Assembly: GCF_003570935.1 (NCBI RefSeq)
Contig: NZ_QXIU01000068.1
Span: forward strand, 16,353-49,027
Source of the DNA: Candidatus Cryosericum odellii
GTDB taxonomy: Bacteria > Caldisericota > Caldisericia > Cryosericales > Cryosericaceae
DNA: 32,675 nucleotides
Direction: 5' to 3'
Part shown: piece by piece, positions 319 through 18,658 of the stretch
How positions within the stretch are numbered: position 1 is the first letter of the stretch
Layout: each line of letters begins with the position of its first letter
The notes under the pieces: model-generated
The model's database searches: none
Seen by the model: only the letters and a program-made list of their open reading frames with translations
Told to the model about the DNA's origin: nothing
Position numbers and translations under genes: made by a program

Positions 319-977
319 GCGTCGTCGACATCCATTGCCACATCCTGCCGGGACTGGACGACGGTGCGCCGGACATGCCTACCAGCGTTGCGATGGCGCG
401 CCTCGCCGCAGTAGCCGGCATCAGCACTGTCATCGGCACGCCCCACTGGATCGAGGACGAGCATGAGACGGACCCCGCCCAGGTGCGTCAGACCGCCAAA
501 GACCTGCAGGCAGAGCTCAACAGCCGGGCTATCCCTCTCACCATCCTGCCAGGTAACGAGGCCTTCATCAGCCCTGACCTGCCCGACCGGGTGAAGAAGG
601 GCGACGTCCTGACCCTTGCCGACCGGGGCACACACCTCCTGCTGGAGTTGCCCTACGAAGATCTGCCCACCTATGTGGACGATGTCATCTTCAAGCTGCA
701 GCTACAGGGCGTCACGCCTGTCCTTGCCCACGTCGAGCGCTACGCGTATGTCCGCAGCGACTGGCATGTCCTGGACCGCTGGGTTCAGCGCGGTTGTCTG
801 GCCCAGGTCAACGCGTCGAGTCTGGACCGCGCCAGGGGCGACGACCTTGCGCAGGACCTGATGGATCGTGGCCTGGTTGCCTGCACGGCAACGGACGCAC
901 ACAATGCAACACTCCGCGTACCACGCAGTATCTGGAATGATTCGAGTACGAGTCTCTCAAAGGAGGCATTGGAATGA
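315..977 (+). CDS. cpsB: CpsB/YwqE-type tyrosine-protein phosphatase (PHP domain)
   Basis: Metal-dependent phosphatase of the PHP superfamily that removes phosphate from the tyrosine cluster of the upstream autokinase. The start gives DIHCHILPGLDDGA, the signature metal-binding motif of this family, within the first 20 residues; GTPHW, GNEAF, LAHVERY and CTATDAHN supply the later conserved His/Glu/Asp metal ligands. At 220 residues it is slightly shorter than the usual 240-260. The ATG start overlaps the kinase stop (ATGA) and the stop overlaps the rmlA start (ATGA), so the three are probably cotranscribed and translationally coupled. The last ~30 codons, with the rmlA junction, occur again in decayed form at the right end of the window. 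Confidence 0.93.
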   Translation: MSVVDIHCHILPGLDDGAPDMPTSVAMARLAAVAGISTVIGTPHWIEDEHETDPAQVRQTAKDLQAELNSRAIPLTILPGNEAFISPDLPDRVKKGDVLTLADRGTHLLLELPYEDLPTYVDDVIFKLQLQGVTPVLAHVERYAYVRSDWHVLDRWVQRGCLAQVNASSLDRARGDDLAQDLMDRGLVACTATDAHNATLRVPRSIWNDSSTSLSKEALE

Positions 978-1726
978 AAGGCATTGTTCTTGCTGGTGGC
1001 ACCGGTTCTCGTCTGTCTCCTCTGACGGCTGTAACTAATAAGCACCTCCTGCCCGTGGGCAACTATCCCATGATCTTTCACCCCATTGCACGCCTCAAGC
1101 AGGCGGGCATCAAGGATGTTCTTGTTGTCACTGGTCGTGATCACATGGGGGATGTCATGGAACTGCTGGGTAGTGGTCATGACTTCGGACTGGACTTAAC
1201 GTACAAGGTGCAGGATCAGGCAGGCGGCATCGCCCAGGCTTTGGGACTGGCTCGTGGTTTCTGCTTGGGCGATAGCTGCTGCGTCATCTTGGGGGACAAC
1301 ATCTTTCAGGATGACCTCACACCATCGGTCGAGGCTTTCCAGCGCCAAGGACAGGGTGCCCGTGTCCTCCTCAAAGAGGTGCAGGACCCCGGGCGTTTTG
1401 GCGTGGCTGAGTTGTCCCAGGACGGACATATCCTGAGTATCGAGGAGAAGCCGGCCAGCCCCAAGAGCAACCTGGCCGTCACCGGCATTTACATGTATGA
1501 TGCTCAGGTCTTTGACATCATTCCGACCCTGGTCCCGTCTCATCGTGGTGAACTGGAGATCACCGACATCAACAACGCGTATATCCGCGCCGGTACCATG
1601 ACGTACGATGTCCTGCAGGGCTGGTGGACAGATGCTGGCACATTCCCCTCGCTGCGCACAGCCAATGATCTGGCGCAGAACGTTGAGCTTGGTCTCGACG
1701 AGACAAGAGACGAGCAGCATGACTAA
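974..1726 (+). CDS. rmlA: Glucose-1-phosphate thymidylyltransferase, short form
   Basis: Makes dTDP-glucose from dTTP and glucose-1-phosphate, the first step to dTDP-L-rhamnose. The N-terminus carries the nucleotidyltransferase signature GGTGSRLSPLT followed by K-HLLPVGNYPM; LGDNIF, VEEKP-like IEEKP and GWWTDAGTF are the later active-site segments. The protein is 250 residues, whereas the classical RmlA has about 290, so the C-terminal helical extension that forms the allosteric site is absent; this matches the short type of sugar-phosphate nucleotidyltransferase. A strong ribosome binding site (AAAGGAGG at 959-966) precedes the ATG, and the start overlaps the cpsB stop. It is followed by rmlC with an 8-base overlap. 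A TDP- versus UDP-glucose preference is inferred from the rml context. Confidence 0.9.
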   Translation: MKGIVLAGGTGSRLSPLTAVTNKHLLPVGNYPMIFHPIARLKQAGIKDVLVVTGRDHMGDVMELLGSGHDFGLDLTYKVQDQAGGIAQALGLARGFCLGDSCCVILGDNIFQDDLTPSVEAFQRQGQGARVLLKEVQDPGRFGVAELSQDGHILSIEEKPASPKSNLAVTGIYMYDAQVFDIIPTLVPSHRGELEITDINNAYIRAGTMTYDVLQGWWTDAGTFPSLRTANDLAQNVELGLDETRDEQHD

Positions 1727-2273
1727 GTTCACCTTTGAGCCGTTGGCTGTCCCCGACTTGATCGTCATCAAGCCGACCGTGCACGGTGACGCACGGGGGT
1801 TCTTTCTCGAGACTTACCGAGCAGACGAGTTTGCAGCGGCTGGTATCACGAACACCTTTGTGCAGGATAACCATTCGCATTCGACCCAGGGTGTCCTGCG
1901 TGGTCTCCACTTCCAGAAGACACGCCCCCAGGCCAAGCTGATCCGTTGTGTAACCGGTCGCATGTTTGATGTTGGCGTCGATCTGCGACGTGGTTCCCCT
2001 ACGTACGGCCAGTGGGCAGGTGTCGAACTCAGCAGTGACAATCACTGGTCGCTCCTTATTCCCAAGGGCTTTGCCCATGGTTTCTTGGTCCTGTCCCCGG
2101 AGGTCGATGTCGAGTACCAATGCGATGAATACTACCATCCTGAGGACGAAGGGGGCTTGCTGTGGAACGACCCCACTGTAGGTATCGTATGGCCTCTTCC
2201 TGTCGGCTCCATGCCTCTCTTGTCCGGCAAGGATCAGCAGTGGCCCACCCTGATACAATGGGAGAAGAGATGA
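1719..2273 (+). CDS. rmlC: dTDP-4-dehydrorhamnose 3,5-epimerase
   Basis: Epimerises dTDP-4-keto-6-deoxyglucose at C3 and C5, the third step to dTDP-L-rhamnose. It is 184 residues, the normal RmlC size, and shows the cupin-fold signatures HGDARGFFLETYR, QDNHSHS followed by GVLRGLHFQ with the catalytic His, DVGVDLRRGSPTYG, and LIPKGFAHGF. The start at ATG 1719 is chosen because it gives the canonical N-terminus (PLAVPDLIVIKPTVHGD); an upstream ATG at 1608 lies inside rmlA and adds unrelated residues. It overlaps rmlA by 8 bases and its stop overlaps rmlD by ATGA. Confidence 0.95.
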   Translation: MTKFTFEPLAVPDLIVIKPTVHGDARGFFLETYRADEFAAAGITNTFVQDNHSHSTQGVLRGLHFQKTRPQAKLIRCVTGRMFDVGVDLRRGSPTYGQWAGVELSSDNHWSLLIPKGFAHGFLVLSPEVDVEYQCDEYYHPEDEGGLLWNDPTVGIVWPLPVGSMPLLSGKDQQWPTLIQWEKR

Positions 2274-3181
2274 GTGTGATGAAGCTGCTCATTGTGGGCG
2301 CTGATGGTCAGCTGGGCACCGACATGGCGCGTCTCCTTGCCCCTCTTTCCGCTGTCACAGCGTTGACCTTCCATGACCTCGACATCACGGGCCGGGCCGG
2401 TGTCAAACAGGCCATCGAATCTGCCCGTCCCGACGTTGTGGTCAACTGTGCAGCCTATACCGCCGTGGACCGGGCTGAGACCGAACAGGATGCGGCGTAT
2501 CGTGTCAACGTCCTGGGCGCCCGCAACGTGGCCCAGGCGGCACAGCGTGTCGGTGCCCGCGTCGTGTACTTCTCCACCGATTATATCTTCGACGGTATGG
2601 CGACCGAGCCCTACGACGAGGAGGCCCCCACGGGTCCCCTCTCCATCTACGGCAGGACCAAACTGCAGGGCGAGCAGGCGACCCGGGAGGCCAACCCGGA
2701 TCATCTCATCCTGCGCCTTGCCTGGCTGTACGGCAGCACCGGGCACAACTTCGTCCGCACGGTCCTGCGCCTTTCCCATGAGAAGGACGAGCTGCGCATC
2801 GTGGATGACCAGGTCGGCAGTCCCACCTTCACCGAGGACGTCGTCCATCAGCTCTGGACAGCCATCGAGGACGGCTGTTCCGGGACGTACCACTGCGTGA
2901 ACGCGGGGCAGGCCAGCTGGCATGCCTTCGCCACCCGCATCGTGCACCGCCTGGGCCTGAATGTTCCCGTCATCGCCATTCACACTGTGGATTACCCTGC
3001 ACCTGCGCGCCGGCCCGTCTACTCGGTGCTGGCCAACCGCAAGTTCGAACTCGAACAGCTGGGCGGCATGCGTCCCTGGGAAGGCGCCCTCGACGACTGC
3101 TTGCTTCAGTACCGGGAGCAATTGTCCTCTGCTTCCTCCGAGAGCAATGCTAGCCTTGGTAAAGCAAGGATCGAGGAATGA
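2270..3181 (+). CDS. rmlD: dTDP-4-dehydrorhamnose reductase
   Basis: NAD(P)H-dependent short-chain reductase that completes dTDP-L-rhamnose. The 303-residue product begins MSVMKLLIVGADGQLG, the Rossmann dinucleotide-binding motif of RmlD, then NCAAYTAVDRAE, STDYIFDG and the catalytic YGRTKLQGE (YxxxK). The late DDQVGSPT segment is a family hallmark. The ATG at 2270 is preferred over the frame-open ATG at 2162 because it overlaps the rmlC stop (ATGA), has GGAGAAG just upstream and gives the standard N-terminus. The stop overlaps the next gene in the same way. Confidence 0.95.
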   Translation: MSVMKLLIVGADGQLGTDMARLLAPLSAVTALTFHDLDITGRAGVKQAIESARPDVVVNCAAYTAVDRAETEQDAAYRVNVLGARNVAQAAQRVGARVVYFSTDYIFDGMATEPYDEEAPTGPLSIYGRTKLQGEQATREANPDHLILRLAWLYGSTGHNFVRTVLRLSHEKDELRIVDDQVGSPTFTEDVVHQLWTAIEDGCSGTYHCVNAGQASWHAFATRIVHRLGLNVPVIAIHTVDYPAPARRPVYSVLANRKFELEQLGGMRPWEGALDDCLLQYREQLSSASSESNASLGKARIEE

Positions 3182-3837
3182 GCGCATTCGGCTTTGTGAA
3201 ACATAAGTTGATAGTAAGGGCGTTCAGGAAATCATTCGCGGCACGGTTTCCACGTCAGTACATGATACCTGTGTCGCTCTTCGACATCACCAAAGTAGAA
3301 GTGGGCGACTTCTCGTACGGTCCCCTGGATGCGATATGCTGGAACAATCCGGGGGAACATCTGTCAATTGGTCGTTTCGTGTCAGTTTCTCCAGAAGTCG
3401 TGTTCCTCCTGGGGGGGAATCACGATTACCGATTGCCCTCGACCTATCCGTTTGATTCGCTGGTTCTGAGAGACCGTGAGGATGTGCCAGCAACCAAGGG
3501 CGGGATAGTCGTCCATGACGATGTCTGGATTGGGCAGAAGGCGATGATTCTCTCTGGAGTCGATGTTGGCCAGGGGTCCGTCATAGCCGCCGGTGCTGTA
3601 GTTACTCGCGATGTCGAGCCTTACAGTATCGTTGCCGGTAATCCTGCCAAGGTAGTAAAGCATAGGTTCTCTGAGCATGTGACGCGCGACCTCATCGCGT
3701 GGGCAGACTATTCCCTTTTGGATGCGGAGACGATTCGGCAGTATCGCGACCTCCTGTATCAACCCGTCACTGAACAGAACCTGAACCAGCTACATGGCAT
3801 GTTCGAGAAGCTCAGAACGGCAGTGAAAGTCAGATGA
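3178..3837 (+). CDS. CatB-like hexapeptide-repeat O-acetyltransferase
   Basis: Probable acetyl-CoA-dependent O-acetyltransferase of the left-handed beta-helix (LbH, xenobiotic acetyltransferase) type, expected to acetylate a sugar of the repeat unit or its precursor in the cytoplasm. Hexapeptide-repeat features are VEVGDFSYG, LSIGRFVSVSPEV, the loop GGNHDYR with the likely catalytic His, VVHDDVWIGQKAMILSGVDVGQGSVIAAGAVVTRDV and SIVAGNPAKVVKHRF, the last being the typical end of the coil. The length of 219 residues fits the family. It begins by ATGA overlap with rmlD and sits between rmlD and rmlB. Base composition is slightly lower in GC than rmlD. The acceptor sugar cannot be predicted. Confidence 0.87.
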   Translation: MSAFGFVKHKLIVRAFRKSFAARFPRQYMIPVSLFDITKVEVGDFSYGPLDAICWNNPGEHLSIGRFVSVSPEVVFLLGGNHDYRLPSTYPFDSLVLRDREDVPATKGGIVVHDDVWIGQKAMILSGVDVGQGSVIAAGAVVTRDVEPYSIVAGNPAKVVKHRFSEHVTRDLIAWADYSLLDAETIRQYRDLLYQPVTEQNLNQLHGMFEKLRTAVKVR

Positions 3838-3885: not shown

Positions 3886-4887
3886 TTGTTTGATACAATT
3901 CTTGTCACCGGCGGCTGTGGCTTCATTGGCTCCTGCTTCGTCCTCCAGCAGATGAAGCAATATCCCGATATCCACCTCATCAATCTCGACGCGCTGACGT
4001 ATGCCGGCAACCCCGACAATGTCAAAGAGGTTGCGGACGATCCCCGCTACACCTTCGTGCAGGCCGACGTCGCCGACCGTCCCGCCGTGGAGGCCGTCTT
4101 CGCCCAGTATCATCCCACCCAGGTCGTCCACTTCGCTGCCGAGTCCCACGTGGACCGCAGCATCGACGGCCCCGACGTCTTCGTGCGCACCAACGTCCTG
4201 GGCACCCAGGTCATGCTGGACGTGGCCCGCAAGCAGTGGCAGCAGGACGCCTGTATAGACACGGCCCGTTTCCTCTACATCAGCACCGATGAAGTCTACG
4301 GTGACCTCCCTCTGGAGAGCACCGAGAAGTTCATCGAAAGCTCGCCAATCAAACCCAGCAGTCCCTACAGCGTTGCCAAGGCAGCAGGCGACTTGATGGC
4401 CCAGGCCTATCACCGGACGTATGGCATGCCCACCCTCATCACCCGCAGCTCCAATAACTACGGTCCCCGCCAGTACCCCGAGAAGCTCATCCCCCTCACG
4501 ATCAAGAAGGCCTTGGCCGGTGAACCCATCCCTGTCTATGGCGACGGCCTCAACGTCCGCGACTGGCTGTACGTCGAAGACAACTGCCGTGCCATCGATC
4601 TCGTCCTGCACCAGGGCACCCCCGGTCAGGTCTACAACGTCGGCGGGAACAACGAGTTGAGCAACATCGACCTCATCCACCTGCTCCTCCACGCCCTCGC
4701 CCAGCAGACCGGCAACCCCGAGGAGACCTACACCAGGCTCATCACCTTCGTTCCCGACCGTCTCGGACATGACAGGAGGTATGCGCTGGACAGCGGGAAG
4801 CTGTGCTCTAGCCTGGACTGGGTGGCAGGCTCACCATTCATGGAGTCGCTAGCGCAGTCTGTTTCGTGGCTGCGAGGTACTTCGTGA
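3886..4887 (+). CDS. rmlB: dTDP-glucose 4,6-dehydratase
   Basis: NAD-dependent dehydratase that turns dTDP-glucose into dTDP-4-keto-6-deoxyglucose, the second step of the rhamnose pathway. The 333-residue protein has TGGCGFIGS at its N-terminus, AAESHVDRS, the catalytic STDEVYGDL, SPYSVAKAAGD (YxxxK) and RSSNNYGPRQYPEKLIP. The TTG start is chosen because a perfect GGAGGTGA (3873-3880) lies 5 bases before it and because two partial copies at 5890 and 8607 begin with ATG at the equivalent codon; upstream GTG codons at 3868 and 3877 overlap this ribosome binding site. This is the only full-length rmlB in the window. The stop overlaps the likely GTG start of the next gene. Confidence 0.95.
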   Translation: MFDTILVTGGCGFIGSCFVLQQMKQYPDIHLINLDALTYAGNPDNVKEVADDPRYTFVQADVADRPAVEAVFAQYHPTQVVHFAAESHVDRSIDGPDVFVRTNVLGTQVMLDVARKQWQQDACIDTARFLYISTDEVYGDLPLESTEKFIESSPIKPSSPYSVAKAAGDLMAQAYHRTYGMPTLITRSSNNYGPRQYPEKLIPLTIKKALAGEPIPVYGDGLNVRDWLYVEDNCRAIDLVLHQGTPGQVYNVGGNNELSNIDLIHLLLHALAQQTGNPEETYTRLITFVPDRLGHDRRYALDSGKLCSSLDWVAGSPFMESLAQSVSWLRGTS

Positions 4888-5858
4888 AAGAGACGCAATA
4901 TGCCATTGGAGGTCATAGTGAGCCTGTCCGCGCAGGAGTCAGCGGAAGTCAGGAGACTGTCGCGCCAGGTACTCGCAGTGTGGCTGCATGCATAGTCTCC
5001 TACAACCCGGGTCCAGAAGCGCGGTTGACCCTTTACAGTGTGTTGCCTCAGGTGTCGAAAGTGTTTGTCATAGACAACGCCTCCACCAGACAGAGCGAGA
5101 TGGCGCTTTCAGACCTCTGTGCAGAGCTCAGCGTTGCGCTGACGGTGAACAACGAGAACACCGGTGTGGCTGGTGCATTCAACCAAGCGGCCAGCATGGC
5201 GATTAGTCAAGGGTACGAATGGATGCTGCTGATGGACCAGGACACTGTTGCGCCGGTCGGACTGGTTCAACGACTCATGCGTGGTGTCGACAGGTGGGGA
5301 GGAATACGTCTCCCTGCAGTGTTGTGCCCACTGTCTTTAGAGAGTGACCCGTCTGGGCATCAGAGCGCGGTTCCAGACGCTGACACGGCGGTGGGAGCCT
5401 GCATGAGTGCTGGCAGTATGGTGAGACTGGCAGCATGGAAAGCTGTTGGTGGCTACGATGAGAGTTTCTTCGTGGATTACGTCGATCATGATTTCTGTTT
5501 TAGGTGCCGACAACATGGGTGGGAAGTTGTCCAAGTGTGTGGCGCCGTGATGGTGCACAGCCCAGGGAGCCCCATAAGGCATCGGTTTCTCTGGAAGCGG
5601 CCTGCAACTTCAAACCGCTCTGCCCTCAGAGGATACTACATGGCGCGAAATCGGATTCTCTTCTATCGGAAATACTGGCGCTTCGATACCAGATGGGTTC
5701 TTCGCGATGTATGCAATGCGGTCAAAGAAGTCGTGTTGGTCGTTCTGTTTGAGTCAAGCAAGCGTGAGAAGTTGAATGCTATTGGTGTTGGAGTACTCGA
5801 TGGTTGTCGGGGGTTGAGTGGCAAGACACAACGACAGTGGTTCGTGTCTAAGAGATGA
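4884..5858 (+). CDS. GT2 glycosyltransferase, rhamnosyltransferase-like
   Basis: Cytoplasmic family 2 glycosyltransferase that adds one sugar to the lipid-linked repeat unit. AACIVSYNPGPE opens the GT-A fold, followed by VFVIDNAST, NNENTGVAGAFNQ and the metal-binding DxD-like LLMDQDT; GGYDESFFVDYVDHDFCFR is the conserved acceptor-side segment. This pattern resembles the RfbF/WbbL-type rhamnosyltransferases, which fits the adjacent rml genes, but the linkage is unknown. The start is uncertain: GTG 4884 overlaps the rmlB stop (GTGA); GTG 4866 and an internal GTG directly before AACIVSY are alternatives. The first ~35 residues before the conserved strand do not look like a standard N-terminus. 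The C-terminus is basic and may touch the membrane. Confidence 0.83.
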   Translation: MKETQYAIGGHSEPVRAGVSGSQETVAPGTRSVAACIVSYNPGPEARLTLYSVLPQVSKVFVIDNASTRQSEMALSDLCAELSVALTVNNENTGVAGAFNQAASMAISQGYEWMLLMDQDTVAPVGLVQRLMRGVDRWGGIRLPAVLCPLSLESDPSGHQSAVPDADTAVGACMSAGSMVRLAAWKAVGGYDESFFVDYVDHDFCFRCRQHGWEVVQVCGAVMVHSPGSPIRHRFLWKRPATSNRSALRGYYMARNRILFYRKYWRFDTRWVLRDVCNAVKEVVLVVLFESSKREKLNAIGVGVLDGCRGLSGKTQRQWFVSKR

Positions 5859-5889
5859 TGAATGGTTGAGACGATGGAAGTGCTGTTCC

Positions 5890-6198
5890 ATGACTGAGAC
5901 CATGCTTGTCACCGGGGGCTGTGGCTTCATCGGCTCCTGTTTCATCTTCCAGCAGATGCAGCAGTATCCGGAGATTCACCTCCTCAACCTCGACGCGCTG
6001 ACGTATGCCGGCAACCCCGACAATGTCAAAGAGGTTGCAGGCGATCCCCGCTACACCTTCGTGCAGGCCGACGTCGCCGACCGACCGGGGCATGACCGGA
6101 GATATGCGCTGGATGCGGCAAAGGCACACAGGATGTTCGATTGGTTGACACAGGCCTCGTTCGAACGGCAGGTACAGCGCTGCCTGGCGTGGGGATAG
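5890..6198 (+). pseudogene. rmlB copy with an in-frame internal deletion of about 227 codons
   Basis: Second copy of rmlB reduced to 102 codons. Residues 1-66 match the N-terminus of RmlB (TGGCGFIGSCF through VQADVADRP) and the remainder (GHDRRYALD onward) matches its C-terminus. The missing middle includes the catalytic TDEVYG and YxxxK segments, so it cannot be an active dehydratase. The junction lies at a short homology, CGACCG, found in the intact gene at both 4074-4079 and 4755-4760; loss of 681 bases between them keeps the frame. Bases 5989-6038 are identical to 3985-4034 of the intact gene while the first 80 bases are diverged. The open frame survives, so a peptide could still be made. 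Confidence 0.85.
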
Positions 6199-6209
6199 AG
6201 GTGAAGGCG

Positions 6210-7223
6210 ATGGCCGGCCACGGAGATGGCCTAGCCAGTTACAAGGCGGCTGCCACGGACATATCGGTTGCCCTGTGCACGTTCAATGGAGCATTGTACC
6301 TGCAGGAGCAACTTGACAGCTTGCTACGGCAGACGTCGCGGCCCACCGAACTTGTGCTGTCGGACGATGGTTCCTCCGATGCATCGGTCAGCATCGTCAC
6401 GGAATTCGCCAGAGCTGTTGGAATGAGACTTGTCGTGGCTCCCACGCATGCGCGGCTTGGGGTGGGCCAGAACTTCAACCTGGCCCTCTTGCTGTGTTCT
6501 CGACAATATGTGGCATTGTCAGATCAGGATGACGTATGGCTGCCCGACAAGTTGGCCACGGCGCTCGCGGCAATGCATGAGGGGGAAGCCAGGTATGGAA
6601 CGAGTTGTCCTCTGCTGGTTTATACCGACCTGACGGTTGTGGCAGCTGACCTGCGCCCTATCAGTTCTTCGTTCATGAGGTCTAAAGGGTTATGCAATCC
6701 TTCTCCGCATGATGCGCTGACAATTCTACTTACGCAGAATTTTGCCACGGGCTGTACTATGCTCGTCAATCGTCAACTACTGGAGCGTGCGTTGCCAATT
6801 CCTAAGGAAGCTGTGTTTCACGATTGGTGGCTGGCTCTGGTGGCTGCCAGTTGTGGCCACGTGCTGTATGTTGACCAGCCGACTATCATGTATCGGCAGC
6901 ATGATTCAAACGTTATAGGTATCGACACCATGGCACTATCATTGAAGCGTATCATTGCCCATCCTGCTAGTCACTTGGAACATGGCATAGCCATGTGCAC
7001 GTCCTGCGCGCGTCAGCTCGACGTTCTTGAATCGCGGCTCACGGAATGCCATGCCGCAACTGCTGCAATAGAACACGTGCATCGTGTCAAGGAGGCAATT
7101 GCCTGTGGCGGTGTGAGAAGTGTAGGTCGTCTCCTGAGCCAGCATGTCCGACGACTGGGGCGGTTCAGAACAGCCACTTTGTACTTGTTGTGCATGCTGA
7201 AAGGTGCGGATCCTAGACCATGA
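6210..7223 (+). CDS. GT2 glycosyltransferase
   Basis: Family 2 glycosyltransferase of 337 residues, probably extending the repeat unit in the cytoplasm. Conserved segments are ISVALCTFNGALYLQEQLDS, ELVLSDDGSSD, LGVGQNFNLA, the metal-binding SDQDDVWLPDK, and HDWWLAL near the acceptor region. This set is typical of rhamnan and O-antigen GT2 enzymes related to RgpF-neighbour and WbbJ-cluster transferases. ATG 6210 is preferred because GAGGTGA (6198-6204) precedes it by five bases; GTG 6201 and the frame-open ATG 6141 inside the rmlB remnant are less likely. The stop overlaps the next gene by ATGA. Donor and linkage cannot be assigned. Confidence 0.86.
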   Translation: MAGHGDGLASYKAAATDISVALCTFNGALYLQEQLDSLLRQTSRPTELVLSDDGSSDASVSIVTEFARAVGMRLVVAPTHARLGVGQNFNLALLLCSRQYVALSDQDDVWLPDKLATALAAMHEGEARYGTSCPLLVYTDLTVVAADLRPISSSFMRSKGLCNPSPHDALTILLTQNFATGCTMLVNRQLLERALPIPKEAVFHDWWLALVAASCGHVLYVDQPTIMYRQHDSNVIGIDTMALSLKRIIAHPASHLEHGIAMCTSCARQLDVLESRLTECHAATAAIEHVHRVKEAIACGGVRSVGRLLSQHVRRLGRFRTATLYLLCMLKGADPRP

Positions 7224-7489
7224 CCGACATGTCTCGAGGACTCTTCATGGGAATCATAGTAGCCTTTTGTCTATGGCTAGTGGCACGCATGAGAATCAAG
7301 GCTGTATTCTCGCCTTGGGCTATGGGAGGCCTCTTTTCCCTCATCGCCATACTCATTGACGAGCTGGCGGAGCCTAATGTGTTCACCTATCGAGTTGACG
7401 CACTCTTGTGGATGGTAATAGGGATTGGATATGCTCTGTACAATGCTCATGGCAAGCCGTTAGTGACCCAGTCGATGCAGGAGGAGTGA
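7220..7489 (+). CDS. Small membrane protein of unknown function
   Basis: An 89-residue protein with three hydrophobic stretches: residues about 8-22 (LFMGIIVAFCLWLVA), about 33-47 (WAMGGLFSLIAILID) and about 62-74 (ALLWMVIGIGYAL). It is coupled by ATGA to the upstream glycosyltransferase and lies three bases before the next one. Small membrane proteins in this position, such as the DUF2304 family, are often found beside GT2 genes in polysaccharide loci, but the residues do not clearly match that family and no function is assigned. The tight coupling supports a real gene. Confidence 0.65.
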   Translation: MTDMSRGLFMGIIVAFCLWLVARMRIKAVFSPWAMGGLFSLIAILIDELAEPNVFTYRVDALLWMVIGIGYALYNAHGKPLVTQSMQEE

Positions 7490-7492
7490 GGA

Positions 7493-8392
7493 ATGTCTGA
7501 GTTGCCAACGCTGTCTGTTGTCATAGTGACATACCGAAGTAGCAGTGTCATCGTGCCCTGCCTTCAATCAATCCAGAAATTCAATGATATCGGAGATCAT
7601 TTGCAGGTAACGGTCGTTGACAATAGTCCGACAGGTGACTTGACATATGAACTCGTGTGCAATGGGTTCCCATGGGTACAAGCTGTTCGCAATCCCAAGA
7701 ATGGGGGCTATGGCCAAGGAAACAACGTGGGAGCACGATTGTCGACAGGCAAGTATCTGCTATTCCTGAACCCCGATACCGAGTTAGTCGAGCCCTTGTT
7801 TGACTTCGCCATCTCAGCGTTCGAGAGTGATTCGTGTCTGGCAGTGTTCGGCGTGCAACTACTGACGACTGATCATAGGCGTTCTCCCAGTTTCTTCCTT
7901 CGAGATCAACACGAGACCAAGTATCCGCACGGAATTGCCCGGTTGATTTCGCTAATGGGGCACTTCAACGCGGCAACAATGGCGTGTTTGGGTGCGGCCG
8001 TGTTCATTCGCCGGGATGTCTTCCAGCGCATTGGCTGCTTCGACGAAGAGCTGTTCCTGGGCTGCGAGGAATCCGACGTATGGAATCGCATTGACATGCT
8101 TTCTGAAGGCTGGCATGGACGCTTCTTTCGGCAGAAACGTTTCATTCATCTTGGCGGATCCAGCCAGGGAATACGAACGCCGGAGCCGTCTGCATTTCCG
8201 CACAGCGACTATGCAACCGTACATCACTTCTATGACAAGTACGGCCTAGACTTCCACCGCTTTCTCCACTATGAACGCGAGCGAGCCCAGCTAAGGGTAT
8301 GGTACTGGAGACTTAGAAGGAAGCAGAACTTGTGCCGTGAAGCGCAATTGCATGTTGTTGAACTCGACCGGATACTAAAGTTGGAGAAGTAG
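7493..8392 (+). CDS. GT2 glycosyltransferase, WbbL-like
   Basis: Family 2 glycosyltransferase of 299 residues. The N-terminus SVVIVTYRSSSVIVPCLQS, VTVVDNSPTG, the NPKNGGYGQGNNVGA donor-site loop, LFLNPDTE (DxD position) and GCFDEELFLGCEESDVWNR follow the order seen in rhamnosyltransferases of the WbbL type. A strong ribosome binding site, GAGGAGTGAGGA, lies immediately upstream of ATG 7493. The C-terminal 60 residues are rich in Arg and Trp and may bind the membrane surface. With two other GT2 genes nearby it likely forms part of the rhamnose-containing backbone machinery; donor specificity is inferred only from context. Confidence 0.86.
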   Translation: MSELPTLSVVIVTYRSSSVIVPCLQSIQKFNDIGDHLQVTVVDNSPTGDLTYELVCNGFPWVQAVRNPKNGGYGQGNNVGARLSTGKYLLFLNPDTELVEPLFDFAISAFESDSCLAVFGVQLLTTDHRRSPSFFLRDQHETKYPHGIARLISLMGHFNAATMACLGAAVFIRRDVFQRIGCFDEELFLGCEESDVWNRIDMLSEGWHGRFFRQKRFIHLGGSSQGIRTPEPSAFPHSDYATVHHFYDKYGLDFHRFLHYERERAQLRVWYWRLRRKQNLCREAQLHVVELDRILKLEK

Positions 8393-8606
8393 AAGTCAAT
8401 GTGGAATGAAAATCGGAGTCGCAGGCTTGAGCTATCTCTGGCGGGTATAGGGATTCCTTGGCTGAACTTCTTCTGCTATTGCGCTCTTCGAAGTCGGCTG
8501 ACCAGCTTGCTCGGGCCCACTGGATGCTCTTGGCTGGGCCGTCTGAAGAGGAGAGTGTGGCGTCACCATGACAATACGGATGCGGGATGATGGGAGGTAC
8601 TATCCC
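8393..8606 (+). other. Intergenic stretch with a possible gene remnant
   Basis: No confident gene. A frame open from 8431 to the stop at 8569-8571 encodes about 46 residues of coding-like character (for example LAELLLLLRSSKSADQLARAHW) but lacks an ATG; a TTG at 8458 is the only plausible start. A 14-codon ATG frame at 8407 also ends early. The stretch lies directly upstream of an rmlB 5' fragment, so it may be debris from a gene lost when that fragment arrived. The last bases, GGGAGGTAC at 8592-8600, are the ribosome binding site for 8607. Confidence 0.35.
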
Positions 8607-9614
8607 ATGACTGAGACGATCCTCGTTACTGGTGGGTGTGGTCTTATTGGCTCCTGCTTCGTCCTCCAGCAGATGGCGCAACGTCCTGACATCCATCTCA
8701 TCAACCTGGACAAGCTGACGTACGCCGGCAACCCCGACAGTGCCAAGGAAGTCGGAGACGACCCACGCTACACCTTCGCGCAAGCAGATGTTGCCAGCAT
8801 CCCGGTGACTGTCGTCATCCCTTGCTTCAACGCGGCCGATACTGTTGAGCGAGCTCTCCTGTCGGTGGCAGCCCAAACACGCTTGCCGTGCCAAGTCGTG
8901 GTTGTGGATGATGCGAGTGACGACGAGGGAGCTACGTGGAGTAAGCTGTGCGATGTTCGTGGGCGGCTTGCAGGACGTCTCAATGTGGAGCTTGTTCACT
9001 TGGACCACAACAGCGGACCCTCCGTCGCTCGGAATACGGGCTGGGATCGAGCCGTGGGCGACTTCGTGGCTGTCTTGGACGCTGATGACAGTTGGCATCC
9101 ATCGAAGCTGGCCATACAGTACGGCTGGATGCGGGCTCACCCCGACTACGCCATGTCGGGTACGGGCTATCACGTCGTCGACGATGATGACCAGACAGAC
9201 GAAAGCGTCTCGTCCAAGTCTCCTGCATTCTGGCAGGTACGACCCGTGTGGCTGTTGTGTCGCAATCCCTTCATTACATCGACGGTGATGGTGCGCCGAG
9301 GAGTCCAGCAACGGTTCTCTCCAGCCGAACGTCGGTGTGAGGACTACCTACTGTGGCTTCAACTCGCGCTTTCAGGCTCCCACATGGGGTATCTGCTCCC
9401 GTCTTTGACATATCTGCACAAGGCACCCTACGGGGTATCGGGACTCAGTGCAGACCTGTCGGCCATGGAGAGATCAGAATTGCACGTCTTGCGTCGAGTG
9501 CATGAGGAGAGACTGGTGGGCGTATCCCTTTGGGTATTGGCGACGCTGTTCTCACGGGTGAAGTACCTGAAGCGTTCGGTGCATGTCTTGGCACGCAGGA
9601 GGTTGTCGTCGTGA
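8607..9614 (+). CDS. Chimeric protein: RmlB N-terminal fragment fused to a GT2 glycosyltransferase
   Basis: A 335-residue open frame in two parts. Residues 1-63 copy the start of RmlB (MTETILVTGGCGLIGSCF to FAQADVA), including the Rossmann nucleotide-binding turn but no catalytic residues. From residue 66 the frame continues as a complete GT2 domain: VTVVIPCFNAADT, VVVVDDASDDE, GPSVARNTGWDRA, the metal-binding VLDADDSWHP, and ERRCEDYLLWLQLA. A GGGAGG ribosome binding site lies upstream of ATG 8607. A GTG at 8805 directly before TVVIPCFN could start a free glycosyltransferase, so fusion at the protein level is not certain. The RmlB part probably serves as a borrowed translation start or is a recombination scar. 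The stop overlaps the next gene by GTGA. Confidence 0.82.
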   Translation: MTETILVTGGCGLIGSCFVLQQMAQRPDIHLINLDKLTYAGNPDSAKEVGDDPRYTFAQADVASIPVTVVIPCFNAADTVERALLSVAAQTRLPCQVVVVDDASDDEGATWSKLCDVRGRLAGRLNVELVHLDHNSGPSVARNTGWDRAVGDFVAVLDADDSWHPSKLAIQYGWMRAHPDYAMSGTGYHVVDDDDQTDESVSSKSPAFWQVRPVWLLCRNPFITSTVMVRRGVQQRFSPAERRCEDYLLWLQLALSGSHMGYLLPSLTYLHKAPYGVSGLSADLSAMERSELHVLRRVHEERLVGVSLWVLATLFSRVKYLKRSVHVLARRRLSS

Positions 9615-13043: not shown

Positions 13044-14372
13044 ATGTCAAAGAAGATGCTTGACACTCTCGTTGGGTTTGCCCAGGCAGTGACCAACCTG
13101 CTGGTGCTGGTCGGGACGTATTGGGCAGTGTTTGCTATACGGGCCGCATTGGGCCACCCATATGGTACCGCGAATAGACTAGCGGTTGAGGCGGTGTTCC
13201 CCTACTTGGTCGCCCTCTACGTTGTGCTGTGGCTTGTCTATCGGCTGCCTGCCTACTATGAGACGGCCCCTTATGAGGGAGTGCTTAGCCAGGTCTTTGT
13301 TCAGCTTATCCTGGCACTGGCAAGCCTGGCAACGTCCTTCGTCGTTCGTGCGTTTGCGTTTCCACGCGGGTTGGTCGCCACGGCGTTTGCCCTGCAGGTG
13401 GCCGTGCTGGTGCCCCTGAACTACGCTTGGTACCGTTTCTACTCCCGCGTGAGGCCCAAGGCGCTCACCGTCTGCATCGGCACTGATGCCGCTACCGGTT
13501 CTGCTCTGGCACAGCAGCTTTCCACGACCACGGCGTACGTCGTGTCATCCGTGTCGACTGGTGACGTAACCGAGGAGTGGATGCATGACGTTCCAGAGGG
13601 GGCCAGTCTGACGCTGGACGGTGGCGTCCCCTCGCCCGAACGTGACAGGATCCTGAGACTGGCGGTGGGGGACAGGATCGCCGTGCAGCTGGTTGCGACC
13701 GTCAAGGAGACTCTGGCGCAGAATGCACACATGAAGGTCCGGGCCGACCACCTCGTCTTGACCGTAGAGCCGGACAATCACAGCCCTGTAGACCTGGCAC
13801 TGAAGCGCATGCTGGACATTGTTGTCTCTGTTGTCGCCCTTGCCCTTTTCTCCCCCGTGTTTCTGCTAGCTTCCATGGCGATCAAGCTGGAAGACGGGCG
13901 TCCTATGTTCTATCTGCAGCAGAGGCTTGGCTTCCACGGACGTGTCTTCAGAATGATAAAGTTCCGAACCATGTGCCATGACGCTGAGCGGCTGACGGGC
14001 GCTTGTCTGAGTAAGGGAGAGCTGGATCCGCGCATCACGCGTGTAGGTCGACTGCTACGCAGAACCGGGCTTGACGAGGTTCCGCAGTTTCTCAACGTGT
14101 TGCGGGGTGACATGAGTGTGGTCGGGCCACGGCCGGAACGTCCTGAGTTAGCTCAGAAGATTCTGGATGAGACACCGGACTGGAATCTGCGGCTTCTGGT
14201 GCGCCCCGGGATCACGGGCGTGGCTCAGGTGCTCGGGCGGTACGCTACGGCCCCGGAAGACAAGCTCGCGATGGACTTGTCTTACATCCGCTCGCGATCG
14301 CTGTTCAACTACGACCTCACGATTATCTTGAATACCCTCAAGATGTTCTTCATGCCAGAACGCAGGGACTAG
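13044..14372 (+). CDS. Polyprenyl-phosphate sugar-1-phosphate transferase (WbaP/EpsE family)
   Basis: Initiating enzyme that transfers a sugar-1-phosphate from a nucleotide sugar to undecaprenyl phosphate in the inner membrane. The 442-residue protein has four N-terminal transmembrane segments (about residues 10-37, 48-67, 80-105 and 110-128), a cytoplasmic CoA-binding-like linker, and the C-terminal bacterial sugar-transferase domain: a membrane anchor LDIVVSVVALALFSPVFLL, then YLQQRLGFHGRVF, the KFRTM motif, DEVPQFLNVLRGDMSVVGPRPERPE and RPGITGVAQVLGR. ATG 13044 is preferred over 13038 because GGGGG at 13031-13035 is better spaced. It is the last gene before the accessory island. The first sugar is likely the product of the upstream epimerase. 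Confidence 0.92.
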   Translation: MSKKMLDTLVGFAQAVTNLLVLVGTYWAVFAIRAALGHPYGTANRLAVEAVFPYLVALYVVLWLVYRLPAYYETAPYEGVLSQVFVQLILALASLATSFVVRAFAFPRGLVATAFALQVAVLVPLNYAWYRFYSRVRPKALTVCIGTDAATGSALAQQLSTTTAYVVSSVSTGDVTEEWMHDVPEGASLTLDGGVPSPERDRILRLAVGDRIAVQLVATVKETLAQNAHMKVRADHLVLTVEPDNHSPVDLALKRMLDIVVSVVALALFSPVFLLASMAIKLEDGRPMFYLQQRLGFHGRVFRMIKFRTMCHDAERLTGACLSKGELDPRITRVGRLLRRTGLDEVPQFLNVLRGDMSVVGPRPERPELAQKILDETPDWNLRLLVRPGITGVAQVLGRYATAPEDKLAMDLSYIRSRSLFNYDLTIILNTLKMFFMPERRD

Positions 14373-14393
14373 GTCCAGCTACTTCAATCACGG

Positions 14394-14558
14394 GTGACCG
14401 CGCCGAGCGGCGCCTTGCCAGTTGTGACCAGCATGATGCAGACTGCCCGGGAGCTGCGCCCGGCGGTCGGCGCTCTGCTGGAGGCTGCGCGCAGCCATGA
14501 CGCAAACGCCATGCGCGCTGCACTTCACGCCATCGATCCGTCCATCAATATCCCGTAG
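14394..14558 (+). CDS. Short open frame, possible remnant
   Basis: A 54-codon frame (GTG 14394; ATG 14433 is an alternative) in the same phase as the sugar transferase, directly after its stop. The predicted peptide is Ala-rich and helical (TARELRPAVGALLEAARSHD and onward) and looks like a protein C-terminus. No ribosome binding site or family match is seen. It ends where the repeat-rich island begins, so it may be the tail of a gene truncated when the island formed. A small hairpin (GCGCC-GAGC-GGCGC, 14400-14413) without a T-tract sits at its start. Confidence 0.3.
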   Translation: MTAPSGALPVVTSMMQTARELRPAVGALLEAARSHDANAMRAALHAIDPSINIP

Positions 14559-14692
14559 ACAGGGAGAAGACTGGATTCCCGCCTGCGCGGCGAAAGCACC
14601 CCTCAGAAGCGCCCCTCGCATGGGAATAAAGTGCTCGGGGGCATGGGAAAAAAGTGCTCGGGGAATGACAGAAGGTGGCGGGAATGACGGAG
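14559..14692 (+). repeat. Composite island repeat, inverted copy
   Basis: Inverted copy of the composite repeat seen several times between 14.5 and 20.9 kb. It contains GATTCCCGCCTGCGCGGCGAA, a CCCCTCAGAAGCGCCCCTCGC block, and two near-identical modules GCATGGGAAWAAAGTGCTCGGGG. Read on the other strand it matches 20709-20806 in the same order. It ends at the 58-bp inverted repeat. Confidence 0.7.
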
Positions 14693-14750
14693 CACTGCGG
14701 AATTATTCTACTGGAATAATGCTACAAGAATAAAACCACAGAACACGGCG
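14693..14750 (+). repeat. 58-bp inverted repeat, left copy
   Basis: Matches the reverse complement of 17730-17787 at 57 of 58 bases; the one difference is at 14748. It begins CACTGCGG and ends ACACGGCG. Within it is a small hairpin, ATTATTC-TACTG-GAATAAT (14702-14720). Together the two copies bound a 3,095-bp segment with the DUF4143 and first archaeal-type ATPase genes. Confidence 0.88.
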
Positions 14751-14769
14751 ATATGGGGTCAGCTGGTAA
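14749..14769 (+). repeat. 21-bp repeat, left-hand orientation
   Basis: Starts CGATATGGGGTCAGC and is present in inverted orientation at 16346-16366, 16442-16462 and 19344-19364. With 16346-16366 it forms perfect 21-bp inverted repeats around the DUF4143 gene. It abuts the left 58-bp repeat, just as a related sequence (ATATGGGATACGCTG) abuts the right 58-bp repeat. Confidence 0.75.
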
Positions 14770-14870
14770 TTCCAGCCCGAGTGGTACATATGCCGGATCA
14801 GCTTGATCTGGCAATCGACGTCTCATAGGCAAACAAGGACCAAGGGCCGGATTCCCGCATAAGCGGGGGA

Positions 14871-14916
14871 GTGTAACACTCTCGGGACGGTTCCGTTTTC
14901 TCCGAGACTGTTACAC
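14871..14916. promoter_or_regulatory. Long inverted repeat upstream of the DUF4143 gene
   Basis: Two 15-base arms, GTGTAACACTCTCGG (14871-14885) and CCGAGACTGTTACAC (14902-14916), are complementary at 14 of 15 positions with a 16-base spacer. It lies 50-100 bases before the likely promoter of 15037. It could be an operator, a transcription terminator without a clean T-run, or the end of an element. Confidence 0.55.
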
Positions 14917-14966
14917 CTTCGCTGACCCTTCAACACAAGGATGGATTTCCGCGGCGCCGGCCTGTA

Positions 14967-14994
14967 TTGTATTGTCTACGGGTCCATGTACAAT
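14967..14994 (+). promoter_or_regulatory. Candidate sigma-70-type promoter for the DUF4143 gene
   Basis: TTGTAT (14967-14972) and TACAAT (14989-14994) separated by 16 bases, 42 bases before the ATG at 15037. The region between contains TGTCTA and TAGACA in inverted order, a possible operator. Confidence 0.4.
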
Positions 14995-15036
14995 GCAGAC
15001 ATGACATGACGACACTATAGACATGAGGTGACGGTA

Positions 15037-16251
15037 ATGTACAGACAACGTTGGCTCACGCGTCAATTGCAGCTTTCAGAGACAATACTCCCTATCACCG
15101 TACTCACTGGAGCGCGGCAGACAGGGAAGAGTACTCTCCTTGCGAATGAACCGATGTTCGACGGCTATTCCTACACGACGCTCGACGATCCGGATTCCCG
15201 CGAGAAAGCACACACCAACCCTGTCGCATTTGTGGACAGGGCAGACAAATTGATCATTGACGAAGCTCATCGGGAGCCAGACCTGTTCCTCGCTGCCAAG
15301 GAAGCTCTGCGCAAGGACAAGACACGCCGGTTCGTGCTGAGCGGATCCGCCAATTTCCTGCTCCTCAGGCGAATCCAGGATTCCTTGGCTGGACGTGCCG
15401 CCTACCATGTTCTGCGCCAGCCTCTCTGGACCGAGTGGCTTCAGCAGCCGGAACCACTCTGGCTTCTCAGCATGTTTGACACACAACTTCCGGCGAGTGG
15501 TTCAGAACCATCGCCTGCACTGGACCTTCGCACGATCCTGTTCAGAGGTTTCCTGCCAGGCATCAGGGACGCAGCACCCGAACAGGCTGCCGTCTTCTGG
15601 CAGAGCTACGTGACCACCTATCTCGAACGTGACCTGCCGGACATCTCACCGACGACCTCTCTCTTCGACTACCGTGCCGTCATGCGTCGCGTTGCGCTGG
15701 CCACGGGCTCGCTCATGGAGTTCAGGAAGATCGCCGACGATACAAATGTCAACGAGAAGACAGTTGCGAGGTACATCGATGCGATCCAGAAAGCGTATCT
15801 TCTCTCCCTCCTTCCTCCGGCGCCCCTGACGAGCACGACCTCGGTCCGGCGGCAATGGAAGCCGTATCCATGTGACACAGGGCTTATCTGCTCGCTCCTT
15901 GGGATCAAGACCCCCGAAGCACTCGACGATATATTCTGCGGGCACCTCTTCGAAGACATGGTCTTTATGACACTGCAGACATTGTGTGATCTCTGGGATA
16001 TGGGCATGCATTTCGTGCGCACTCGTCGAACAGCTGAACTGCACGAAGTGGGCTTCGTCCTGGAACGCAATGGCAAGAGTGTTGCTGTTGAGGCCAAGAT
16101 GAGCGATGACGTGACCATGAACGACGCTACCCATATTCAATGGTTGATGGACGATGATCCATCTTGTGTCAGTGGCATCGTCGTCTATGGCGGATCTTCT
16201 ATCAAGAACCTTACACGCCGTATCGTTGCAGTCCCCTGGACGATGCTCTGA
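15037..16251 (+). CDS. AAA ATPase with DUF4143 domain
   Basis: Cytoplasmic P-loop ATPase of the AAA_14/DUF4143 type, 404 residues, common in bacteria and archaea but without an established role; proposed roles involve mobile elements or DNA processing. Walker A is TGARQTGKST (Lys 31), Walker B is KLIIDEAH, and SGSANFLLLRR is the sensor-like motif of the family. The middle has TYLERDLP and a winged-helix-like segment. The C-terminal DUF4143 region resembles PD-(D/E)xK nucleases: EVGFVLERNGKSVAVEAK keeps the final ExK, but the usual EVDF aspartate appears to be glycine, so nuclease activity is doubtful. ATG 15037 is chosen with GAGGTGA at 15025-15031; GTG 15028 overlaps that site. It faces the ATPase at 16438 tail to tail. 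Confidence 0.9.
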   Translation: MYRQRWLTRQLQLSETILPITVLTGARQTGKSTLLANEPMFDGYSYTTLDDPDSREKAHTNPVAFVDRADKLIIDEAHREPDLFLAAKEALRKDKTRRFVLSGSANFLLLRRIQDSLAGRAAYHVLRQPLWTEWLQQPEPLWLLSMFDTQLPASGSEPSPALDLRTILFRGFLPGIRDAAPEQAAVFWQSYVTTYLERDLPDISPTTSLFDYRAVMRRVALATGSLMEFRKIADDTNVNEKTVARYIDAIQKAYLLSLLPPAPLTSTTSVRRQWKPYPCDTGLICSLLGIKTPEALDDIFCGHLFEDMVFMTLQTLCDLWDMGMHFVRTRRTAELHEVGFVLERNGKSVAVEAKMSDDVTMNDATHIQWLMDDDPSCVSGIVVYGGSSIKNLTRRIVAVPWTML

Positions 16252-16259
16252 TTGGGGTC

Positions 16260-16472
16260 AGCCGCTCATTCCCGCATCTCTCCGTCATTCCCGCGAAGGC
16301 GGGAATCCATCCTTTCATCTTGTCGGATGTACCACCCTCGCCTATTTACCAGCTGACCCCATATCGTACAATGCGAGGGGCGTACTGAGGGGTGCTTCTC
16401 CCTGAAGGCGGGAATCCATCCCATGTACCACTCTGACCTATTTACCAGCTGACCCCATATCGTATTGAGCAG
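16260..16472. repeat. Two composite repeat units between convergent ATPase genes
   Basis: The first unit has a perfect hairpin ATTCCCGC-GAAG-GCGGGAAT (16287-16306), then CCATCCTTTCATCTTGTCGG, TGTACCACCCTCG and the 21-bp repeat (16346-16366). The second has ATGCGAGGGGCGTACTGAGG, GGCGGGAATCCATCCC, TGTACCACTCTGACC and another 21-bp repeat (16442-16462). The hairpin may end transcription from both sides. The second unit overlaps the 3' end of the minus-strand ATPase gene. Confidence 0.75.
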
Positions 16473-17604
16473 CTGACCCCAACGTGAGCCAACGCGCCAT
16501 GAACGGGTCAACGACGGAGTAGACGCCCCGCTGGTCCTCTTCGACGAAGTCGAGCTTGACCAGGGCCTTAACCGCTTTCTGGATGCCGCCTGATGACAGT
16601 TGGCGGTTTAGAGGATAGTCTGCGCCATAGAGGGACTTGGATGGCTGAGCAGCAAGCGCCCTGAGGACCGCCTTCTGGCCGGGGGACAACGCAGAGAGCG
16701 TCGCCTCAAATTCGGGCGACTGCATGCTGAGCATCGTCTGACAGGACGTTTCGACATGCTCTGCTGTGCACGAATGTCCAGGCTGCGTCTCGTTCCATGC
16801 GATCATCGCCAAGCCCTGAACATACCAGGAGAAGCCGTCTGCCAGCCGATAGATGGACGCGGCCACGTCGGCAGGGCAGTCCTTGCCCGTCGCAGCAAAT
16901 CGCTCCGAGATGAATGCGACAAACGCGTTCTCAGGGATCTTGCCAAGTGGATAGACAAGAGAACTGCGGTAGAACGGGCGGTTCTTGTCGGAGAACATGT
17001 CCGTGAGAATATGCCGCCTGCTGCCCAGGAACAGAAACGACACACTGCTGTGTTCCTGCACAAAGGATCTCAGAGTCCCTTCGAGGGTCTTGGATTGTTC
17101 CAGTGCAGCAATCTCCTGGAACTCGTCCAGGACGATGCACGCGCGCTTGTGCTGGCGTTCCACGTAACGGTAGAGACTGCTGAGCACATCGTCGATGACA
17201 ATAGTGGCCGGCACGCCAGGATCGATCGTCGCAGAAGCCTTCACCCCGTCACTGGTGATCTCCATGCGTGGCGATATCCTGGTGAAGAGACCGAGCAGAC
17301 GCTTCCCGATGGTGGTGGGATTCGCCCCACGGCCGATACCTCGAATGATCCCATCAGACAGCCGCTGGACAAAGTCGCGCTCGGACGAAACGGGATAGAC
17401 GTCGATCCTGGCTGTCAGGAAGTTCTCGGCCTCCAGGCATTCCAGCACTTTCGCAGCCAGAGATGACTTGCCCAGGCGACGCGCCGAGAGAAGCACGACG
17501 CTCTGACCGTTGCGAACATAGGTCAGCAGGTCATCCAGTTCATGTTCTCGATCACAGAATGCTTCATCTCGCGCGAGATGCAGCGTAAACGGATTGTCTG
17601 CCAT
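16438..17604 (-). CDS. Archaeal-type P-loop ATPase (ATPase_2 family), copy A
   Basis: ATP-binding protein of 388 residues of the archaeal ATPase family. NPFTLHL and AFCDREHELDDL open the protein, followed by Walker A SARRLGKSS (Lys 46), Walker B CIVLDEFQEIA and the GSRRHILTDMF segment; the C-terminal third is a predicted winged helix (LSPGQKAVLRAL through LVKLDFVEED and VVDPFMARWL). The cellular role of such proteins is not established. It is a diverged paralogue of 19412-20557. ATG 17604 is chosen because GGAGGC lies six bases upstream; an earlier in-frame ATG at 17622 overlaps that site. The last ~14 codons (GSAAQYDMGSAGK) are encoded by the repeat, so the natural stop seems to have been replaced by repeat insertion. 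Confidence 0.87.
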   Translation of the reverse strand: MADNPFTLHLARDEAFCDREHELDDLLTYVRNGQSVVLLSARRLGKSSLAAKVLECLEAENFLTARIDVYPVSSERDFVQRLSDGIIRGIGRGANPTTIGKRLLGLFTRISPRMEITSDGVKASATIDPGVPATIVIDDVLSSLYRYVERQHKRACIVLDEFQEIAALEQSKTLEGTLRSFVQEHSSVSFLFLGSRRHILTDMFSDKNRPFYRSSLVYPLGKIPENAFVAFISERFAATGKDCPADVAASIYRLADGFSWYVQGLAMIAWNETQPGHSCTAEHVETSCQTMLSMQSPEFEATLSALSPGQKAVLRALAAQPSKSLYGADYPLNRQLSSGGIQKAVKALVKLDFVEEDQRGVYSVVDPFMARWLTLGSAAQYDMGSAGK

Positions 17605-17655
17605 CTCAATGCCTCCAAGCAACGACCGTCACTTGTGTCCAACGTTGCTGCTCGT

Positions 17656-17685
17656 AGTATATCACATTTTATTCCACTAGCATAA
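17656..17685 (-). promoter_or_regulatory. Candidate promoter for ATPase copy A
   Basis: On the minus strand, TTATGC (17685-17680) and TATACT (17661-17656) are separated by 18 bases, and the -10 is preceded by TGTGA. The start codon lies about 50 bases downstream. No other strong candidate is seen here. Confidence 0.4.
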
Positions 17686-17729
17686 TCCTCACAGAGAGCG
17701 ACGTATAAGTGGCTACAATAGAAGAATTA

Positions 17730-17787
17730 CGTCGTGTTCTGTGGTTTTATTCTTGTAGCATTATTCCAGTAGAATAATTCCGCAGTG
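17730..17787 (-). repeat. 58-bp inverted repeat, right copy
   Basis: Reverse complement of 14693-14750 with one mismatch. It lies in the upstream region of ATPase copy A and directly next to the MITE-like element. The placement suggests that 14693-17787 may move or have been duplicated as a unit. Confidence 0.88.
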
Positions 17788-17791
17788 GATA

Positions 17792-17928
17792 TGGGATACG
17801 CTGCTCATTGCTTACCGGGTGGTACATTCGCCGTCCTTACGCCGAAGTTCTGTCATTCCCCGCAGGCGGGAATCCATCCTTTCATTTTGTCGGATGTACC
17901 ACCCTCATCGATTGAGCAGCGTATCTCA
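17792..17928. mobile_element. MITE-like element, 137 bp
   Basis: Bounded by 16-base terminal inverted repeats, TGGGATACGCTGCTCA (17792-17807) and TGAGCAGCGTATCTCA (17913-17928), which pair at 15 of 16 positions. The interior has the common module TGTCATTCCCCGCAGGCGGG, then AATCCATCCTTTCATTTTGT and TGTACCACCCTC, shared with other island repeats. Single copies of the right end occur at about 19388-19401 and 20837-20852. No coding capacity; a transposase would have to act from elsewhere. Confidence 0.65.
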
Positions 17929-17945
17929 AAGGCAGTTGTTGCCTG

Positions 17946-17973
17946 TTGACATATGCTGCACATGTAATACAGT
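17946..17973 (+). promoter_or_regulatory. Candidate promoter and operator of the first toxin-antitoxin operon
   Basis: TTGACA (17946-17951) and TACAGT (17968-17973) with 16-base spacing. The region carries a loose inverted repeat, ACATATG near 17950 and CGTACATAT near 17977, which would suit binding by the RHH antitoxin for autorepression. Confidence 0.5.
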
Positions 17974-18005
17974 GTCGTACATATAGAACGAGAGGAGGCT
18001 ACACC

Positions 18006-18224
18006 ATGGCGATTGAAGAAGTTATCTCTCTCCGCGTCGAGGGAGACTTGAAGAGACGAGTCGATGAAGTTGCTCGCCATACAGGACGGTCGAAGGCATG
18101 GGTCATCAGGAAAGCTGTCGACTTGTATCTTGAGGATATCGAGGACATCGAGATGAGTGAGCAGCGCCTTGCTGATCCGAAAGACAACGTCATCTCCTCT
18201 GATGAGTTGATGTCGCGTCTATGA
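18006..18224 (+). CDS. Ribbon-helix-helix (CopG/RelB-like) antitoxin 1
   Basis: DNA-binding antitoxin of 72 residues. The N-terminal half is a ribbon-helix-helix domain: the strand EEVISLRVEGDL, helix A KRRVDEVARHTGR, then SKAWVIRKAVDLYLEDIED. The C-terminal tail (MSEQRLADPKDNVISSDEL) is acidic and would wrap the toxin. ATG 18006 has GAGGAGG upstream. The stop overlaps the toxin start by ATGA, the usual coupling in such operons. It is expected to repress its own promoter, which is seen at 17946. Confidence 0.88.
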   Translation: MAIEEVISLRVEGDLKRRVDEVARHTGRSKAWVIRKAVDLYLEDIEDIEMSEQRLADPKDNVISSDELMSRL

Positions 18225-18469: not shown

Positions 18470-18477
18470 CTTTTCTG

Positions 18478-18590: not shown

Positions 18591-18630
18591 CGGAAGCGCG
18601 CAGCCAACAGCATCGTGAAGCTGGTGTGCC

Positions 18631-18658
18631 TTGAACACATGAACGTCCTGCATATAAT
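18631..18658 (+). promoter_or_regulatory. Candidate promoter of the second toxin-antitoxin operon
   Basis: TTGAAC (18631-18636) and a consensus TATAAT (18653-18658) separated by 16 bases. Just downstream, ATTGCATTGTATTGCACTGT has a repeated TTG-TATTGCA motif that may be the antitoxin operator. Confidence 0.55.

Follow-up and report, generated by a model that had tools for sequence, protein, structure and literature searches.

Loci that pair a constant upstream part with a variable downstream part are known from Vibrio cholerae, whose T6SS effector-immunity and Rhs loci change by sequential displacement, for which homology-facilitated illegitimate recombination has been proposed (PMC5361080). 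The locus of Candidatus Cryosericum analysed here resembles them in this layout, in displaced remnants that stay in place and in the proposed route, with homology at an upstream anchor and illegitimate joining at the opposite end. However, what stays behind in V. cholerae are orphan immunity genes or 3' regions, maybe kept for protection (PMC5361080), whereas the Cryosericum remnants are mostly 5' ends of a metabolic gene and have no evident use. A similar likeness holds for the galactose-initiated O-antigen clusters of Salmonella, which were assembled by recombination and whose remnants decay by serial deletion near glycosyltransferase genes; there the remnants are fragments of wzy and of insertion sequences, in contrast to the ends of rmlB, rmlA and a PHP gene found here (PMC3715488). 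In the pneumococcal cps recombination hotspot, conserved regulatory and rhamnose genes likewise flank the serotype-specific genes, and recombination is elevated there. That case comes from a population-scale recombination analysis, whereas ours concerns duplicated remnants in few species of an uncultured phylum (PMC5850285). For truncated or partially duplicated rmlB, our literature search found nothing directly comparable.

In an uncultured phylum that has been little studied, we describe what are probably fossil traces of glycosyltransferase exchange next to a conserved gene for rhamnose. The case is clear yet fairly ordinary as bacterial surface-sugar remodelling goes, and it comes from a permafrost-associated genus. 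With scar-bearing and scar-free states both present in related species, the tails of rmlB and its 5' scars may provide a handle for ordering surface-polysaccharide changes from genomes alone.

A polysaccharide locus with three rmlB starts

The window, by which we mean the whole stretch of 32,675 nt that was analysed, corresponds to C234:16353-49027, a contig of a Candidatus Cryosericum MAG (G000) with 75% completeness and 9% contamination. Judged by RmlB, its nearest named relatives are Candidatus Cryosericum hinesii, Ca. C. septentrionale and a Lake Pavin Caldiserica MAG. The window holds a long polysaccharide locus with the order PHP-rmlA-rmlC-rmlD-acetyltransferase-rmlB, followed by GT2 glycosyltransferase genes, a wzy-like gene and further sugar genes. 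The 3' end of the PHP gene is found again, in decayed form, at the window's right end. Conserved sugar-precursor genes lie beside variable glycosyltransferase genes, and homology is lost sharply within or at the end of the gene at the border. We read the locus as an exopolysaccharide superlocus of mosaic make-up from a Candidatus Cryosericum species: the conserved rml block ends with rmlB, and this gene marks the border to the variable glycosyltransferase region. The features are as follows:

315-977, +, PHP-type (CpsB-like) gene, a conserved anchor upstream of rmlA (blastn against the superloci)
974-1726, +, rmlA, intact
1719-2273, +, rmlC, intact (putative start)
2273-3181, +, rmlD with altered C-terminus (Pfam RmlD_sub_bind)
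3178-3837, +, hexapeptide-repeat acetyltransferase, at the rmlD/rmlB junction in the window only
3886-4887, +, rmlB copy 1, intact dTDP-glucose 4,6-dehydratase (TIGR01181, Pfam)
4866-5858, +, GT2 glycosyltransferase GT4866 (Pfam), its first ~39 residues from a post-rmlB leader common to contig C126
5890-6198, +, rmlB copy 2, codons 1-66 continuing in frame into the rmlB 3' end (102 codons plus stop)
6211-7223, +, GT2 glycosyltransferase behind copy 2 (GT6211), 89% (nt) and 86% (aa) identical to the glycosyltransferase directly behind intact rmlB in genome G010
7493-8392, +, GT2 glycosyltransferase GT7493 (Pfam)
8607-8798, +, rmlB copy 3, codons 1-64, preceded by about 12 nt of rmlB leader and fused in frame to GT2
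8799-9614, +, GT2 domain of the fusion (Pfam)
32133-32487, +, decayed PHP 3' end and rmlA 5' end, 74% identical to window positions 854-1215

The acetyltransferase at 3178-3837 resembles xenobiotic acetyltransferases of the Vat/CatB type, with scores far under their cut-offs; a polysaccharide O-acetyltransferase is more likely than an enzyme of the xenobiotic type.

The first-pass annotation had reported three rmlB starts (3886, 5890 and 8607), each ahead of a GT2 gene or fused to one, and both blastn and Pfam confirm this arrangement. The first 192 nt of rmlB are present at 3891-4082, at 5895-6086 (91% nt identity) and at 8612-8803 (78%), with blastn E values of about 1e-72 and 1e-42 for the repeats, which is far beyond chance. 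Full-length copy 1 passes the curated TIGR01181 cut-off of 365.1 bits with a score of 423 bits. Copies 2 and 3 reach 95.4 and 58.6 bits, both below the cut-off, and are therefore remnants. Both retain the rmlB leader of about 12 nt, further upstream of which similarity to the end of rmlD is at background level. The MTET start, which had been noted as shared by copies 2 and 3 and unlike that of the intact gene, is no shared derived feature but turned out to be ancestral: the intact rmlB of contig C126 also begins with MTETM and other species with M(S/R/A/D)E(T/V). It is the LFDT start of copy 1 that is, by comparison of alleles, the odd and derived one.

rmlB as border to changing glycosyltransferase genes

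This type of rmlB is present in just six genomes, and the known rmlB scars number three. Over the first ~302 codons, RmlB shows 84-92% identity between species, and beyond them its tails are unrelated. One tail is common to copy 1, C126 and G010, another to G001 and G008, while G013, G004 and copy 2 each have their own. Tail similarity exceeds that of shuffled sequences only within these groups and is at shuffle level between them.

The genes behind rmlB mostly differ from species to species. By blastn against the other superloci, the rml genes recur, unlike most glycosyltransferase, wzy and related genes of the window: for GT4866, GT7493, GT8805, wzy9587 and epi12114 no nucleotide homologue was found there, and the sole match of GT10933 and the sugar-phosphate transferase at 13038 is a fragment of ~69% identity in G004. 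The exception is GT6211, whose nucleotide homologue occurs in G010 only, behind intact rmlB. Copy 1 and C126 have ~90 nt in common behind rmlB and then run into different GT2 genes, so that the leader shared with GT4866 precedes a different, truncated GT2 in C126.

Upstream of rmlB, the junctions differ as well. rmlD leads directly into rmlB in G010, G013, G004 and C126; in the window the acetyltransferase gene lies between them, and in G001 and G008 a GT4-family gene. In G008 (Ca. C. septentrionale), a 62-nt rmlB 5' end, not fused to a gene, is left between rmlD and the GT4-family gene, with intact rmlB on the other side. G001 has no rmlB scar at its rmlD/GT4 junction, although the flanks align.

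In the comparison with related genomes, the glycosyltransferase genes beside rmlB are mostly unshared and the rml genes recur. Together with the tail switch at codon ~302 and the GT4-family insertion in G001 and G008, this supports rmlB as a recombination border with turnover of the adjoining glycosyltransferase genes. The further proposal that rmlB serves as a homology landing pad holds as far as the border role goes; an active role in receiving DNA, as opposed to merely flanking it, would go a step beyond the comparison.

Some apparent scars in these genes were set aside: the internal deletions of rmlC and rmlD in C126 are apparent only and reflect Ns in the scaffold, and an rmlD 5' fragment at G008:C3 was rejected as a scar, since it lies at a contig end. 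An rmlD-like fragment is present in G004 at C38:46856. A second rmlD lies on the contig of the window, upstream of it (C234:4296-5143); it is 92% identical to the window rmlD and is followed by a MurJ-like gene instead of rmlB.

Copy 2 and its internal deletion

Copy 2 aligns with copy 1 from 5895 to 6086 (3891-4082) and then from 6072 to 6113 (4749-4790), which amounts to a forward jump of 681 bp, or 227 codons, within rmlB. Its product reads MTET...VADRP-GHDRRYALD, adds a 27-aa tail of its own and stops at 6198, before GT2 follows as a separate gene. In line with this, NCBIfam matches the 102-aa product in two stretches, an N-terminal one (5-65) and a C-terminal one (62-101, profile 291-330). 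The deletion endpoints lie at similar sequences coding for VADRP and VPDRP, and in the G001 allele the repeat pair GTCGCCGACCGTCC and GTCCCCGACCGTCC is spaced exactly 681 bp, the size of the deletion. A short direct repeat is thus a likely source of the copy 2 deletion; because the repeat is less perfect in alleles other than G001, this account is graded as likely and not as proven. From the stop codon of copy 2 onwards (TGGGGATAG), the window is again similar to G010.

Copy 3 and its glycosyltransferase

A true rmlB::GT2 fusion is present in copy 3 alone, joined after codon 64 and 335 residues long. The nearest homologue of its GT2 domain within the genus, in G007, is 45% identical and has its own N-terminus of ~22 residues. 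The GT2 of the fusion probably still takes its ribosome-binding site and start codon from copy 3.

This raises the question of whether rmlB 5' fragments are selected as translation-start modules, which would drive the downstream glycosyltransferase through their ribosome-binding site, start codon and well-translated N-terminus. We regard this as quite unlikely. Copies 2 and 3 are indeed open and in frame behind their ~12-nt leader, copy 3 has a good Shine-Dalgarno-like motif (GGGAGG) ahead of its start, and in pairwise comparison with intact alleles dN/dS is mostly 0.05-0.2 (near 0.1 for copy 3). However, the low values may date from before the fragments arose, which for copy 3 means before the fusion, and copy 3 has eight residues absent from the intact alleles, including the changes F13L and V58A at invariant sites, against one to five in controls. 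Besides, the G008 scar is fused to no gene at all. A bolder form of the idea, in which the 5' end of rmlB, with its ribosome-binding site and ~64 codons, would be a portable module through which incoming start-less glycosyltransferase genes become expressed by in-frame fusion, as in copy 3, appears to us doubtful and of low probability; if true, it would make the rmlB scars adaptive and not debris.

The first-pass annotation had also placed a single shared recombination point at codon 64. Copies 2 and 3 do both leave rmlB at codons 63-66, with endpoints within about 10 nt of each other, a coincidence that we would roughly put at ~2% under uniform choice over ~1 kb, but the two events differ in kind, one being an internal deletion between short repeats and the other a fusion to GT2. 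The other scars end elsewhere, at 62 nt in G008 and near 240 nt in the rmlA remnant of the window. Junction positions thus differ and indicate no site-specific motif near codon 64. No recombinase was found among the window proteins scanned, and neither the recombinase gene nor the constant core site of integron-like cassettes appeared among these proteins and the junctions compared. Movement of glycosyltransferase cassettes through a site-specific or motif-driven recombination point around codon 64 is therefore extremely unlikely.

How the remnants may have formed

The best explanation, and one we consider quite probable on comparative sequence grounds, is recombination at the rmlB border that imports glycosyltransferase DNA, with redundant rmlB then decaying to remnants. 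DNA with rmlB and different glycosyltransferase genes would enter by homologous recombination anchored in the conserved rml/PHP sequence; the import itself we infer. Joining may sometimes be additive, homologous at one end and illegitimate at the other, and would then leave partial duplicates. The redundant rmlB would decay, copy 2 via the repeat-associated deletion of 681 bp and copy 3 via truncation and in-frame fusion to GT2. Part of the pattern could stem from vertical divergence and deletions. ComEC is present in 13 of the 15 genomes of the genus and DprA above its cut-off in 14 of 15; both families are also widespread among bacteria for which transformation is not known, and their presence in the genus does not show competence.

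The extra copies could also go back to local tandem duplication by unequal crossing-over followed by decay, without DNA import at rmlB. Copies 1 and 2 are nearly identical at positions 100-191, with two differences in 92 positions against 14 in the preceding 91, which suggests exchange between them. In tests of such exchange, the longest shared run gave p = 0.04 (uncorrected) and third positions p = 0.33, which argues weakly for gene conversion or recent exchange between these two copies. Against tandem duplication, copy 2 (91.3% identical to copy 1) resembles copy 1 no more than do the alleles of G001 and G008 (90.7 and 90.2%), and copy 3 is just 75-80% identical to every rmlB allele, so that divergence from copy 1 is about equal to that of alleles of different species for copy 2 and greater for copy 3. 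Besides, copy 2 has a different 3' tail and a glycosyltransferase neighbour common to G010. Duplication in place thus seems unlikely to us.

In a MAG with this level of contamination, an assembly chimera between strains has to be weighed as well. Two contigs of the same bin, C126 and C127, hold other rmlB alleles, that of C127 being nearly identical to G001, and stretches of 50 and 42 nt are exactly the same in copies 1 and 2. Yet there is no long shared word at the junctions of the 681-bp deletion or the copy 3 fusion and no N in the window, G010 shows an adjacency matching that of copy 2 and its glycosyltransferase, and the separate genome G008 bears a comparable scar. We therefore hold a chimera to be very unlikely.

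Further remnants and minor observations

No insertion sequence was found at the remnant junctions. The decayed PHP/rmlA stretch at the window's right end has a counterpart junction in G008, behind which rmlA is intact, and fragments of the PHP gene occur at three places on contig C35 of this genome.

Between 24988 and 31073, the window contains genes resembling a CDP-sugar pathway (nucleotidyltransferase-like, dehydratase, DegT aminotransferase family and an acetolactate synthase-like TPP enzyme), which are partly common to G008 with 87-88% nt identity. Dispersed short repeats of 35-135 nt, some of them inverted, surround AAA-ATPase genes at 14300-21000 and also occur upstream of the window at C234:6900-9900. 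Given the Y1 (IS200-like) transposase gene at C234:7030-7989, likewise upstream of the window, the repeats could be REP-like elements. G010, G013 and C126 have short within-contig repeats, too.
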